Positions 17,941 to 25,582 of a stretch of DNA of 64,000 nt are shown here, one piece after another. The number at the start of each line of letters is the position of its first letter. Position 1 is the stretch's first letter. Source of the stretch: Bacteroidota bacterium (GTDB lineage: Bacteria > Bacteroidota > Bacteroidia > B-17B0 > Aurantibacillaceae); contig JAUXTT010000040.1 of NCBI GenBank assembly GCA_030684395.1, positions 1-64,000 on the forward strand, given 5' to 3'. Both the position numbers and the translations under genes were made by a program. The notes under the pieces were generated by a model. The model was not told where the DNA came from, did no database searches, and was given only the letters and a program-made list of their open reading frames with translations.

Positions 17941-18366
17941 CTACTTTTTCTTCTTCTTTGCTGCAACTTTTGCAGAATCTTCTTTCCACTCTTGAAGCAC
18001 TGTTGAAGCAGCGCCTTCAAATACTAAAGTGTGCATGTAGAATAATAAAAACTCAGCGAAATCTGCTGATGTGTTTTTGTCTACAGATAAATGATCAAAT
18101 ATTTCCTGGTGATCGTGAGAGGTTTCTATTAATTTCTTGATCTCAGCTTTTGAAAGAATATCAGCGTCAACGCCCATGAAGTATCCGTTAACAACATCTG
18201 CTGTTAACCAGTCGATCTGATGCATTAATTTTTCATCAACTTTAGTTGGCGCTTTTGCAACTGCTTTCGCAATGACTTTTTTTACTACTTTTTTAACCGC
18301 TTTCTTTGGCGCTGCTTTTTTGATTGCTTTTTTCGGAGCAGCTTTTTTTGTTAGTTGTTTTTTCAT
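17941..18366 (-). CDS. Small protein with histone-H1-like N-terminal tail
   Basis: The 141-residue protein opens with a Lys/Ala/Pro-rich arm (about 1-42; KKAAPKKAIKKAAPKKAVKK) of the same type as the adenylate kinase tail 5 kb away. A predicted helical acidic domain follows (about 45-125; DWLTADVVNGYFMGVDADIL, HDHQEIFDHL), and the protein ends AAKKKKK. The arm looks able to bind nucleic acid. I do not recognise the C-terminal domain. It has its own terminator and probably its own promoter. Function is unknown; a nucleoid-associated role is possible but inferred only from composition. Confidence 0.75.
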   Translation of the reverse strand: MKKQLTKKAAPKKAIKKAAPKKAVKKVVKKVIAKAVAKAPTKVDEKLMHQIDWLTADVVNGYFMGVDADILSKAEIKKLIETSHDHQEIFDHLSVDKNTSADFAEFLLFYMHTLVFEGAASTVLQEWKEDSAKVAAKKKKK

Positions 18367-23245: not shown

Positions 23246-23274
23246 TTGCCAGTACCTAAAAAAACTTACATTTG
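23246..23274 (+). promoter_or_regulatory. Promoter of adk
   Basis: TTG at 23246-23248 and TACATTTG at 23267-23274 are separated by 18 bp, matching the Bacteroidota -33/-7 pattern. The ATG follows at 23297, leaving a short leader. Confidence 0.7.
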
Positions 23275-23296: not shown

Positions 23297-24505
23297 ATGC
23301 TAAACATTGTTTTATTTGGACCTCCGGGTGCCGGAAAAGGTACTCAGGCAAAAAAATTACTTGAGACGTATAACTTAGTACACCTTTCAACCGGCGATTT
23401 GCTTCGCTCTGAAATTGATGCTGGCACTGCGCTAGGTAAGCAAGCAAAAACGATCATGGACAGAGGAGAATTAGTTTCTGATGAGATTGTGATTGGAATG
23501 ATTGATAATAAATTGAATGAGAATCCATATTCTAAAGGATTTATATTCGATGGTTTTCCGCGTACTACGGCTCAGGCGAAAGCTTTGGACGAGTTATTGG
23601 AAAAAAAGCATACTAACATCAGAATGATGATCGCTTTGGAAGTTGATAACGTAGAACTTACCAGAAGATTATTGGTAAGAGGTCACGAATCAGGCAGAGC
23701 TGATGATCAGAACGAAGATATTATAAAAAACCGTATTCAGGAATACAACAATAAAACTGCTCCTTTAAAAAACTATTATTCTAATCAGGGTAAATTCCAC
23801 TCTGTTTACGGAATAGGAAGCATTGAGCAGATCTTTGAATTGTTATGCGCGACAATCGATAACAAAACAAAGGCGAAAATTGTTGAACCGGATGGTATAC
23901 CAACCATTGCTGATGTAAGCATGGAAAAAGAAGTTTTTGCTCAGGCAGTTGGTGCCGGCGAAAAAGGTAATGTGTATAAAGCGCCCGTTGCTGAAGAAAA
24001 GAAAAAGGCTGAAGAGAAGAAAGTGGTTGTAAAACCGGTTGAAGTTTCGAAGCCCAAACTAAACACAGCTGTAAAGAAGGTAGTGGTAAAATCAGCTCCT
24101 GCAAAAAAATCAGCACCTGCTAAAAAGGTTGCGGTTAAGTCAGCACCTGCAAAAGTTAAGAAGAGTACTCCTAAGAAGATTGTAAAAAAAGCAGCCCCTA
24201 AAAAAGCAGTTAAGAAAATAGTTAAAAAAGTTGCCCCGAAGAAGGTTGTAAAGAAAATTGCACCTAAAAAAGTGGTTAAGAAAACAGCAAAGAAGGTAGT
24301 TAAGAAAGTTGTTGTTAAAAAGGCAATAAAAAAGATCGTTAAGAGAGTAGCACCTAAAAAGGTTGTGAAAAAAGCGATAAAAAAGGCAGCTCCGAAAAAA
24401 ACAGTTAAGAAAGCAGCTCCAAAAAAGGCCACTAAAAAATCTGCACCAAAAAAGGCAGTTAAAAAAGTTGTAAAGAAGGCTGCTCCAAAAAAGAAGAAAA
24501 AATAA
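23297..24505 (+). CDS. adk: Adenylate kinase with long histone-H1-like C-terminal tail
   Basis: I start at 23297, directly before the P-loop (LFGPPGAGKGTQ, K14) and downstream of a clear promoter; an upstream frame opening at 23246 overlaps that promoter. Residues 1-192 are a complete short-LID adenylate kinase (LSTGDLLR, FDGFPRT, RLLVRGHESGRADD), which interconverts ATP plus AMP and two ADP. About 210 extra residues follow: an acidic linker, then from about residue 236 a Lys/Ala/Val/Pro-rich tail with eight APKK units, ending AAPKKKKK. Enzymes of this family usually stop near 190-220 residues. The tail resembles histone H1 and the 141-aa protein at 17941, and probably binds nucleic acid or polyanions. 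The frame stays open through the repetitive tail. Confidence 0.92.
   Translation: MLNIVLFGPPGAGKGTQAKKLLETYNLVHLSTGDLLRSEIDAGTALGKQAKTIMDRGELVSDEIVIGMIDNKLNENPYSKGFIFDGFPRTTAQAKALDELLEKKHTNIRMMIALEVDNVELTRRLLVRGHESGRADDQNEDIIKNRIQEYNNKTAPLKNYYSNQGKFHSVYGIGSIEQIFELLCATIDNKTKAKIVEPDGIPTIADVSMEKEVFAQAVGAGEKGNVYKAPVAEEKKKAEEKKVVVKPVEVSKPKLNTAVKKVVVKSAPAKKSAPAKKVAVKSAPAKVKKSTPKKIVKKAAPKKAVKKIVKKVAPKKVVKKIAPKKVVKKTAKKVVKKVVVKKAIKKIVKRVAPKKVVKKAIKKAAPKKTVKKAAPKKATKKSAPKKAVKKVVKKAAPKKKKK
24003..24502 (+). repeat. Low-complexity lysine-codon tract of the adk tail
   Basis: The tract is built from short units encoding APKK, VKK and AKK with mixed AAA/AAG lysine codons. It is therefore a degenerate repeat rather than a perfect microsatellite. 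Confidence 0.8.
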
Positions 24506-24526
24506 TACAGTAAACAAATGAATTGG

Positions 24527-24569
24527 GCCCAGAGTTATAGGATTCTCTATAACCTTGGGCTTTGTTTTT
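24527..24569 (+). terminator. Terminator between adk and obg
   Basis: Arms at 24527-24540 and 24547-24560 (GCCCAGAGTTATAG against CTATAACCTTGGGC) pair with two internal mismatches and lead into a T-rich stretch. It ends 9 bp before the obg ATG. Confidence 0.75.
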
Positions 24570-24577
24570 AAGACACG

Positions 24578-25582
24578 ATGGATAATAATTTTGTAGATTA
24601 CGTTAAGATATGTTGCCGTTCGGGAAAAGGCGGAAAAGGCTCGACTCACTTGCGTAGAGAAAAATCTGTTCCAAAAGGCGGACCTGATGGTGGTGATGGA
24701 GGAAGAGGCGGCCATATCATTTTGAGAGGTAATAAACAGCTCTGGACTTTAATACATTTAAAATATAGAAAACACGTGATCGCTACTGATGGCGAAGCGG
24801 GTGGAAGTGCTTTGTGTACCGGTAAAGAAGGGGAAGATGAAATTTTAGAAGTTCCATTGGGAACAATTGCTAAAGACGTGGAGAGTGGAGAAGTGTTGTG
24901 TGAAATAAGTGAAGAGGGACAGGAATACATCATTGCAAAAGGCGGAAGAGGTGGTTTAGGTAACTGGCATTTTAAAAGCTCTACTCATCAAACACCACGC
25001 TACTCTCAACCGGGTGAAGAAGGGGTGAACGAATGGAAAATTCTGGAATTAAAAGTATTGGCAGATGTTGGTTTAGTGGGTTTTCCAAATGCAGGAAAAT
25101 CAACTTTATTATCAGTTATGTCTGCGGCTAAACCGGAGATCGCAAATTATCCTTTTACTACTTTAACTCCTCAATTGGGAATTGTAAAATACTACGATTA
25201 CAAGTCTTTCATTATGGCCGATATTCCGGGTATCATTGAAGGAGCAAGCGAAGGACGAGGTTTGGGCTTACGTTTCTTAAGACATATTGAACGAAATTCT
25301 ACTTTATTGTTTTTAGTAAATGCAGATTCAGACGATGTTTTTGAAGAGTACAAAATATTGTTGAATGAATTAAAAAAATACAACCCTGAACTGCTTGATA
25401 AGAAACGTATTCTTGGGATATCAAAAGCTGACCTTATTGATAAGGAATTGGAAGAAATGATCTCTCAGGACCTTAATAAAAGATTAAAAGGTAAGAACAA
25501 ACTTCCTTTTGTGTTTTTCTCAGCACATACCAATTACAATCTTCAGGAACTAAAGGATCTTATTTGGAAAAATATTCAGTAA
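24578..25582 (+). CDS. obg: GTPase Obg
   Basis: The 334-residue protein has the glycine-rich Obg fold first (about 1-158; [31 protein letters not shown]). The GTPase domain follows (about 160-330), with G1 [10 protein letters not shown]3 DIPGI and switch sequence [10 protein letters not shown], and SKADL as G4. Obg binds the large ribosomal subunit late in assembly and links growth to the stringent response. It lacks the C-terminal extension found in some relatives, which is normal. An FAH-family gene follows 18 bp later on the same strand. Confidence 0.96.

Follow-up and report, generated by a model that had tools for sequence, protein, structure and literature searches.

Adenylate kinase (Adk) is usually pictured as an essential enzyme that diffuses freely in the cytosol. 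AK6 is a different Adk type; AK6, Fap7 and hCINAP are described as adenylate kinases in ribosome assembly. The NCBIfam model NF010381 (PRK13808.1) describes an Adk of 335 positions, whose members are presumably alphaproteobacterial proteins with Lys/Ala tails. For Pseudomonas, one paper describes the KPAA tail of AlgP as DNA-binding and the tail of PhaF as a presumed tether of granules to the nucleoid; it also places AlgP itself at polyphosphate (polyP) granules, the spacing of which depends on the AlgP C-terminus (PMC9239181). The lysine-repeat C-termini of actinobacterial TopA are linked to processivity in another paper (PMC7398561). Our literature searches returned no paper describing a lysine-tailed Adk.

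The adk gene analyzed here lies in a stretch of DNA of 64,000 nucleotides, hereafter the window. Positions 23297-24505 form a single open frame of 402 amino acids, running from the ATG at 23297 to the stop at 24503-24505 with no internal stop, in which a short-lid Adk core is followed by a linker and then by a Lys-rich tail (Table 1). The initial annotation had described a complete Adk continuing in frame into a histone-H1-like tail with eight APKK units and an oligo-lysine end, and this description holds in each point: the frame is uninterrupted, eight APKK units are counted and the protein ends in KKKKK. The tail length of about 210 residues given there includes the 33-aa linker, however; the Lys-rich tail proper is 177 aa long. 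An alternative TTG start upstream, at 23246, would yield a protein of 419 aa, but the ATG is preferred because most relatives begin at MLN.

Table 1. Features of the adk locus, in window coordinates.
Feature	Position	Strand	Basis
Adenylate kinase core, aa 1-192 (P-loop GPPGAGKGTQ, TGDLLR, DGFPRT, short lid)	23297..23872	+	PF00406, NF001381; invariant residues, AlphaFold pLDDT, Foldseek 3cm0
Linker, aa 193-225, type A (DGxxTxADxSxED-like), net charge -3	23873..23971	+	Motif, charge
Lys-rich H1-like tail, aa 226-402, predicted disordered	23972..24502	+	Composition, pLDDT, conservation, selection
RNA hairpin with U-rich 3′ side, between adk and obgE	24520..24567	+	-21.1 kcal/mol, z -3.6
obgE (GTP1_OBG), downstream neighbour	24578..25582	+	PF01018 2.1e-58

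Profile, residue and fold tests all identify the window protein as an Adk, for which catalysis is predicted. Residues 6-165 match PF00406 with an E-value of 5.7e-53 (179.5 bits vs. a cut-off of 26.8), and the match to NF001381 (235.3 bits) lies above its cut-off of 187. The score on AAA_18, which we take to be the Pfam family of AK6, was 28.7 bits vs. a cut-off of 29.4, far under that of the ADK family. Invariant among 21 aligned Adks are G8, P10, G11, G13, K14, G15, T16, R37, D85 and R89, together with R124, R134, D136, D137 and R146; these columns are presumably P-loop, AMP-site and lid residues. AlphaFold assigns residues 1-190 a pLDDT of 85-95 per block of ten, and the best Foldseek match is the Adk of Thermus thermophilus (3cm0; TMt 0.86, 41% identity). 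The genome to which the window belongs is 98.9% complete and has one PF00406 match, the tailed Adk, leaving the idea of a specialized second isoform unsupported.

The tail contains 72 lysines (41%), consists of K, A, V and P to 85% and has a net charge of +68, in agreement with the H1/Hc1-like composition noted initially. Between residues 196 and 395, AlphaFold segments with a pLDDT below 50 add up to 178 residues, and the tail is thus predicted to be disordered. No histone-like Pfam family (HC1 or HC2) matched the window protein up to an E-value of 1; on one relative (L062), HC2 gave an E-value of 0.18, far under cut-off. The eight APKK units have seven different spellings at the DNA level and the tandem-repeat rows inside the tail match at 74-90%, which rules out a young DNA repeat as the origin of the tail. 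Searching the genome with a DNA pattern for APKKx(V/A)KK gave 13 occurrences, six of these in the Adk tail, and none for the reversed pattern. Over 77 tails, lysines are in excess at lags of 4, 5 and 9 residues and in deficit at 2 and 3, although the z-scores overstate the significance of this spacing, since the 77 tails are related. The final residue is Lys or Arg in all but one of these tails (76/77), and the Lys+Arg fraction, which ranges from 0.27 to 0.46, shows no correlation with GC3 of the core (r 0.01), ruling out low GC as the driver of tail composition. Counted from residue 190, the tailed Adks extend by a further 91 to 297 residues.

The tail is a regular feature of the window's GTDB family. 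An Adk match was obtained in 80 of the 87 family genomes searched and 71 Adks were extracted, of which 69 are tailed; the tail is therefore conserved in relatives rather than absent from them. All 71 extracted frames are complete, which rules out a frameshift or stop separating core and tail, a point that the initial annotation had raised. The two untailed Adks (G004 and G013) come from one genus and, in the core tree described below, fall outside the clade of the tailed family Adks on a long branch; no Adk match was obtained in the remaining two genomes of this genus. Three of the nine matches left unextracted lie in frames of 168, 55 and 251 aa (G104, G087 and G086, respectively), the last of which runs into a contig end. 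The others (G080, G071, G081, G063, G074 and G082) lie in open frames of 347-415 aa, and those of G071, G080 and G082 align with the NF010381 model to at least position 322 without a stop. One family genome (G026) gave no Adk match in repeated searches, despite being 98% complete.

To extend the comparison beyond the family, we used a class-level sample of 247 genomes, 246 of which had an Adk match; 140 of the 150 matches listed were from outside the family. We read all 17 listed non-family frames longer than 280 aa, a threshold that may have missed shorter tails. Among the matches listed, Lys tails were present in eight genomes from five other Bacteroidia families (G056, G256, G297 and G276 in f21, G138 in f11, G305 in f37, G128 in f43 and G041 in f6), while eight others of the 17 long frames have their extra length upstream of the Adk start. 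The Adk of G043 (L039) is extended at its C-terminus by about 325 residues of another kind, which are not Lys-rich overall and end in RKRKRKLR, and that of G017 (L032) has a long His/Asp/Glu-rich stretch before its Lys tail, perhaps related to metal or polyP. A tandem second Adk-like domain is found in ten frames of 386-392 aa (L117, L142, L148, L150, L154, L156, L157, L158, L163 and L168). Among the matches listed from named public genomes, none of the 78 readable Adks was Lys-tailed (80 loci fetched, with near relatives perhaps missing from the set). For plasmids, none of the 216 matched records covered at least 80% of the query, and the three inspected are annotated as proteins of 193-202 aa.

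A tree built by a quick method from 118 cores, with 28 of the 71 family Adks, 44 others that were extracted and 46 named ones, places the 26 tailed family cores that it contains in one clade (SH-aLRT 98). The tail changes state at least eight times on this tree, where 41 of 115 inner branches are open and gain is indistinguishable from loss.

The tail is under purifying selection in close pairs. By a simple counting method, with 40 of 177 pairs listed and tail dS saturated in about one third, tail dN/dS was 0.10-0.39 where it could be estimated; in close pairs, it was 0.15 (G014/G101), 0.27 (G009/G015), 0.24 (G097/G106) and 0.14 (G084/G062). The core evolves under far lower values (0.004-0.051 where estimated), and many of the 40 listed pairs combine a tail dN of 0.2-0.5 with a core dN of at most about 0.06. 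Of 68 Lys codons in the G014/G101 pair, 53 are identical, 14 differ synonymously, one is changed to Arg and none is lost. In the distant pair G021/G093, by contrast, 12 of 39 aligned lysines are lost. Such losses in distant pairs suggest that composition is held more than each individual site.

The linker is also conserved, in two main forms. An acidic linker (LExDIEHLDLTINDFEVA..., at about residues 190-235; e.g. L007, L008 and L063) is present in 56 of the 69 tailed family Adks, and the type A linker (DGxxTxADxSxED) in ten, including the window protein. Neither motif is found in the remaining three, of which G005 resembles a diverged version of the acidic form. No Pfam family scored above cut-off over the linker in the four family members scanned. 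The conservation of the linker sequence suggests a docking or regulatory role.

The hairpin between adk and obgE is a possible terminator or processing site; it does not appear on the list of a terminator pattern scan. With a loose motif search, an Obg-like motif was found downstream of adk in 63 of the 69 tailed family loci, but also behind untailed Adks, both outside the family (27/36) and within it (2/2), which rules out that the tail is tied to obgE. We also looked at two other nucleotide kinases in 16 genomes, ten of them from the window's GTDB family. Ndk matched in 15 of the 16, in frames of 140-177 aa, and guanylate kinase (Gmk) was over cut-off in all 16, in frames of 191-219 aa; neither had a tail-sized extension.

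A survey of 861 kb of the window genome (755 ATG-start ORFs of at least 50 aa, with ORFs cut at the ends of stretches possibly lost) asked which other proteins have at least 27% Lys over 60 aa. The Adk tail ties for the densest 60-aa lysine stretch in this set (0.47). Eight other Lys-rich proteins were found, of which four work on nucleic acid or on the machinery that handles it: TopA and bL21, with Lys-rich C-terminal ends, and RNase_H_2 and a DksA/TraR zinc-finger protein, with Lys-rich N-terminal ends. The other four are a VOC/glyoxalase-like protein, an M23 peptidase, a small Cys/Lys-rich protein and a 141-aa protein of the window; the share becomes 4/6 without the peptidase and the Cys/Lys-rich protein, whose Lys-rich parts look different. 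The 141-aa protein (17941-18366, minus strand) consists of an unassigned domain flanked by a Lys-rich N-terminus with AAPKK units and a terminal KKKKK, with no Pfam match above cut-off and NCBIfam matches that are weak and far under cut-off. A short H1-like frame at C31 fell under the size limit of the survey. In relatives, Lys-rich ends occur on SWIB, DksA/TraR-type and AhpC/TSA peroxiredoxin proteins. Three peroxiredoxin-like proteins (L047, L048 and L051) have Lys-rich N-terminal extensions, with Pfam confirming L047 and L051.

Binding to a polyanion is the most reasonable kind of reading for the tail. More specifically, sequence, structural models and analogy point to a tail that may tether the housekeeping Adk of this Bacteroidia lineage electrostatically to nucleic acid, i.e. 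nucleoid DNA and/or RNA and ribosomes, a reading that we prefer to its rivals and to which we assign a probability just short of even. The disordered, H1-like C-terminal tail would bind nucleic acid electrostatically, the catalytic domain would hang on the flexible linker and remain active, and AMP from aminoacylation, ligation and similar reactions would be converted to ADP close to its source. We infer that the tail binds, which polyanion it binds and what the cell gains, whereas the fused gene, its intact catalytic residues, the conservation of and selection on the tail and its recurrence in several families are observed. Composition, predicted disorder and the likeness to AlgP and PhaF argue for such a tether, as do, in part, the other Lys-rich proteins, with SWIB added by the relatives. 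Tail conservation, the dN/dS values, the lysine spacing, the basic end and the lack of correlation with GC3 also favour it, as does the absence of tail-sized frames for Ndk and Gmk in the 16 genomes. On the other side, four of the eight other Lys-rich proteins, one of them an unknown, fall outside the nucleic-acid group, relatives have Lys-rich peroxiredoxins, and a housekeeping Adk without a second copy is needed everywhere else in the cell too. The tail alone matches no NCBIfam model, nor the protein a histone-like Pfam family up to an E-value of 1; lysines are lost in distant pairs, and one family genus, with two Adks, is untailed.

Polyphosphate is the main rival to nucleic acid as the partner of the tail. 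In this case, the tail would bring Adk to polyP granules and link adenylate balance with the phosphate transfer that depends on PPK; in E. coli, the two enzymes cooperate on polyP and AMP. The window genome indeed has a polyphosphate kinase (PF02503), the His-rich stretch before the Lys tail of G017 is in line with the proposal, and the H1-like AlgP is described as sitting at polyP granules (PMC9239181); the kinase and the place of AlgP also weigh against nucleic acid. However, the kinase is widespread, being present in 7 of 14 control genomes, and does not predict a tail, and four of the eight other Lys-rich proteins act on nucleic acid while a role on polyP is known here for none of them. 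We consider polyP an unlikely partner. Docking of Adk on ribosomes or their precursors, in the manner of AK6/Fap7, would fit the adjoining obgE, the Obg-like motifs downstream of most tailed family loci (loose motif), the Lys-rich end of bL21 and the role in ribosome assembly ascribed to Fap7/AK6. Yet Obg-like motifs also stand behind untailed Adks, showing that this neighbourhood is not linked to the tail, and AK6 is of a different Adk type; we give ribosome docking distinctly little credence.

The tail could instead have a generic role, in membrane or surface electrostatics, solubility, stress or desiccation, with no specific polyanion. The order of residues drifts while composition stays (tail dN 0.2-0.5), and similar ends occur on unrelated enzymes. 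The recurrence of lysine every 4-5 residues and the basic end of nearly all tails point to something beyond bulk charge, although any polyanion could select for these two features, and a generic role seems to us quite improbable. A neutral low-complexity expansion or an assembly artefact might be suspected from the A-rich, low-complexity DNA and its partial repeats, but can practically be dismissed, given that 69 of the 71 extracted family Adks are tailed, that dN/dS in the listed pairs stays far under 1, that eight APKK units have seven spellings and that GC dependence is lacking.

A wider arrangement is also conceivable, in which a shared lysine-tail address would gather Adk, TopA, bL21, the RNase-H-like, DksA-like and SWIB proteins and peroxiredoxin on the nucleoid or another polyanion, with Adk recruited repeatedly. 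We hold this to be somewhat unlikely; if true, adenylate balance would be set locally at the nucleoid or other polyanion. With the only detected Adk of the genome fused to a selected polycationic tail, localized adenylate equilibration in bacteria becomes testable, and the tailed and untailed relatives in several families provide natural comparisons.

How does this protein compare with those described before? The initial claim that no such tails occur on known Adks is doubtful, since NF010381 (PRK13808.1) aligns along the tails studied here. Like the window protein, this model joins an Adk core to a long C-terminal extension; its alignment covers residues 3-310 of the window protein and, in the main family matches listed, extends beyond position 285 for all but the untailed G004. 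The two differ in score: the window protein reaches 180.4 bits vs. a cut-off of 426, which none of 51 family genomes attained (best noted 242 bits, in G009). The tail of the window protein adds nothing to the score (180 bits at full length vs. 181 for the core alone). By these profile comparisons, the window protein resembles PRK13808.1 in layout and is not a member. It resembles the histone H1-like HC1 and HC2 in composition, but not by Pfam match. AK6/Fap7/hCINAP are described as eukaryotic ribosome assembly factors, unlike the window Adk, and to our knowledge have no Lys-rich tail. Actinobacterial TopA shares with the tailed Adks a Lys-rich C-terminal end on an enzyme, in its case a topoisomerase and not a nucleotide kinase. 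Where the proteins analyzed here have Adk, AlgP is reported to have a helical N-terminal domain (PMC9239181), and AlgP and PhaF have KPAA repeats, whereas the window tail has KK doublets with A, V or P and no KPAA. What the two Pseudomonas proteins, as described, have in common with the tailed Adks is a disordered Lys/Ala/Pro tail on an otherwise unrelated domain.
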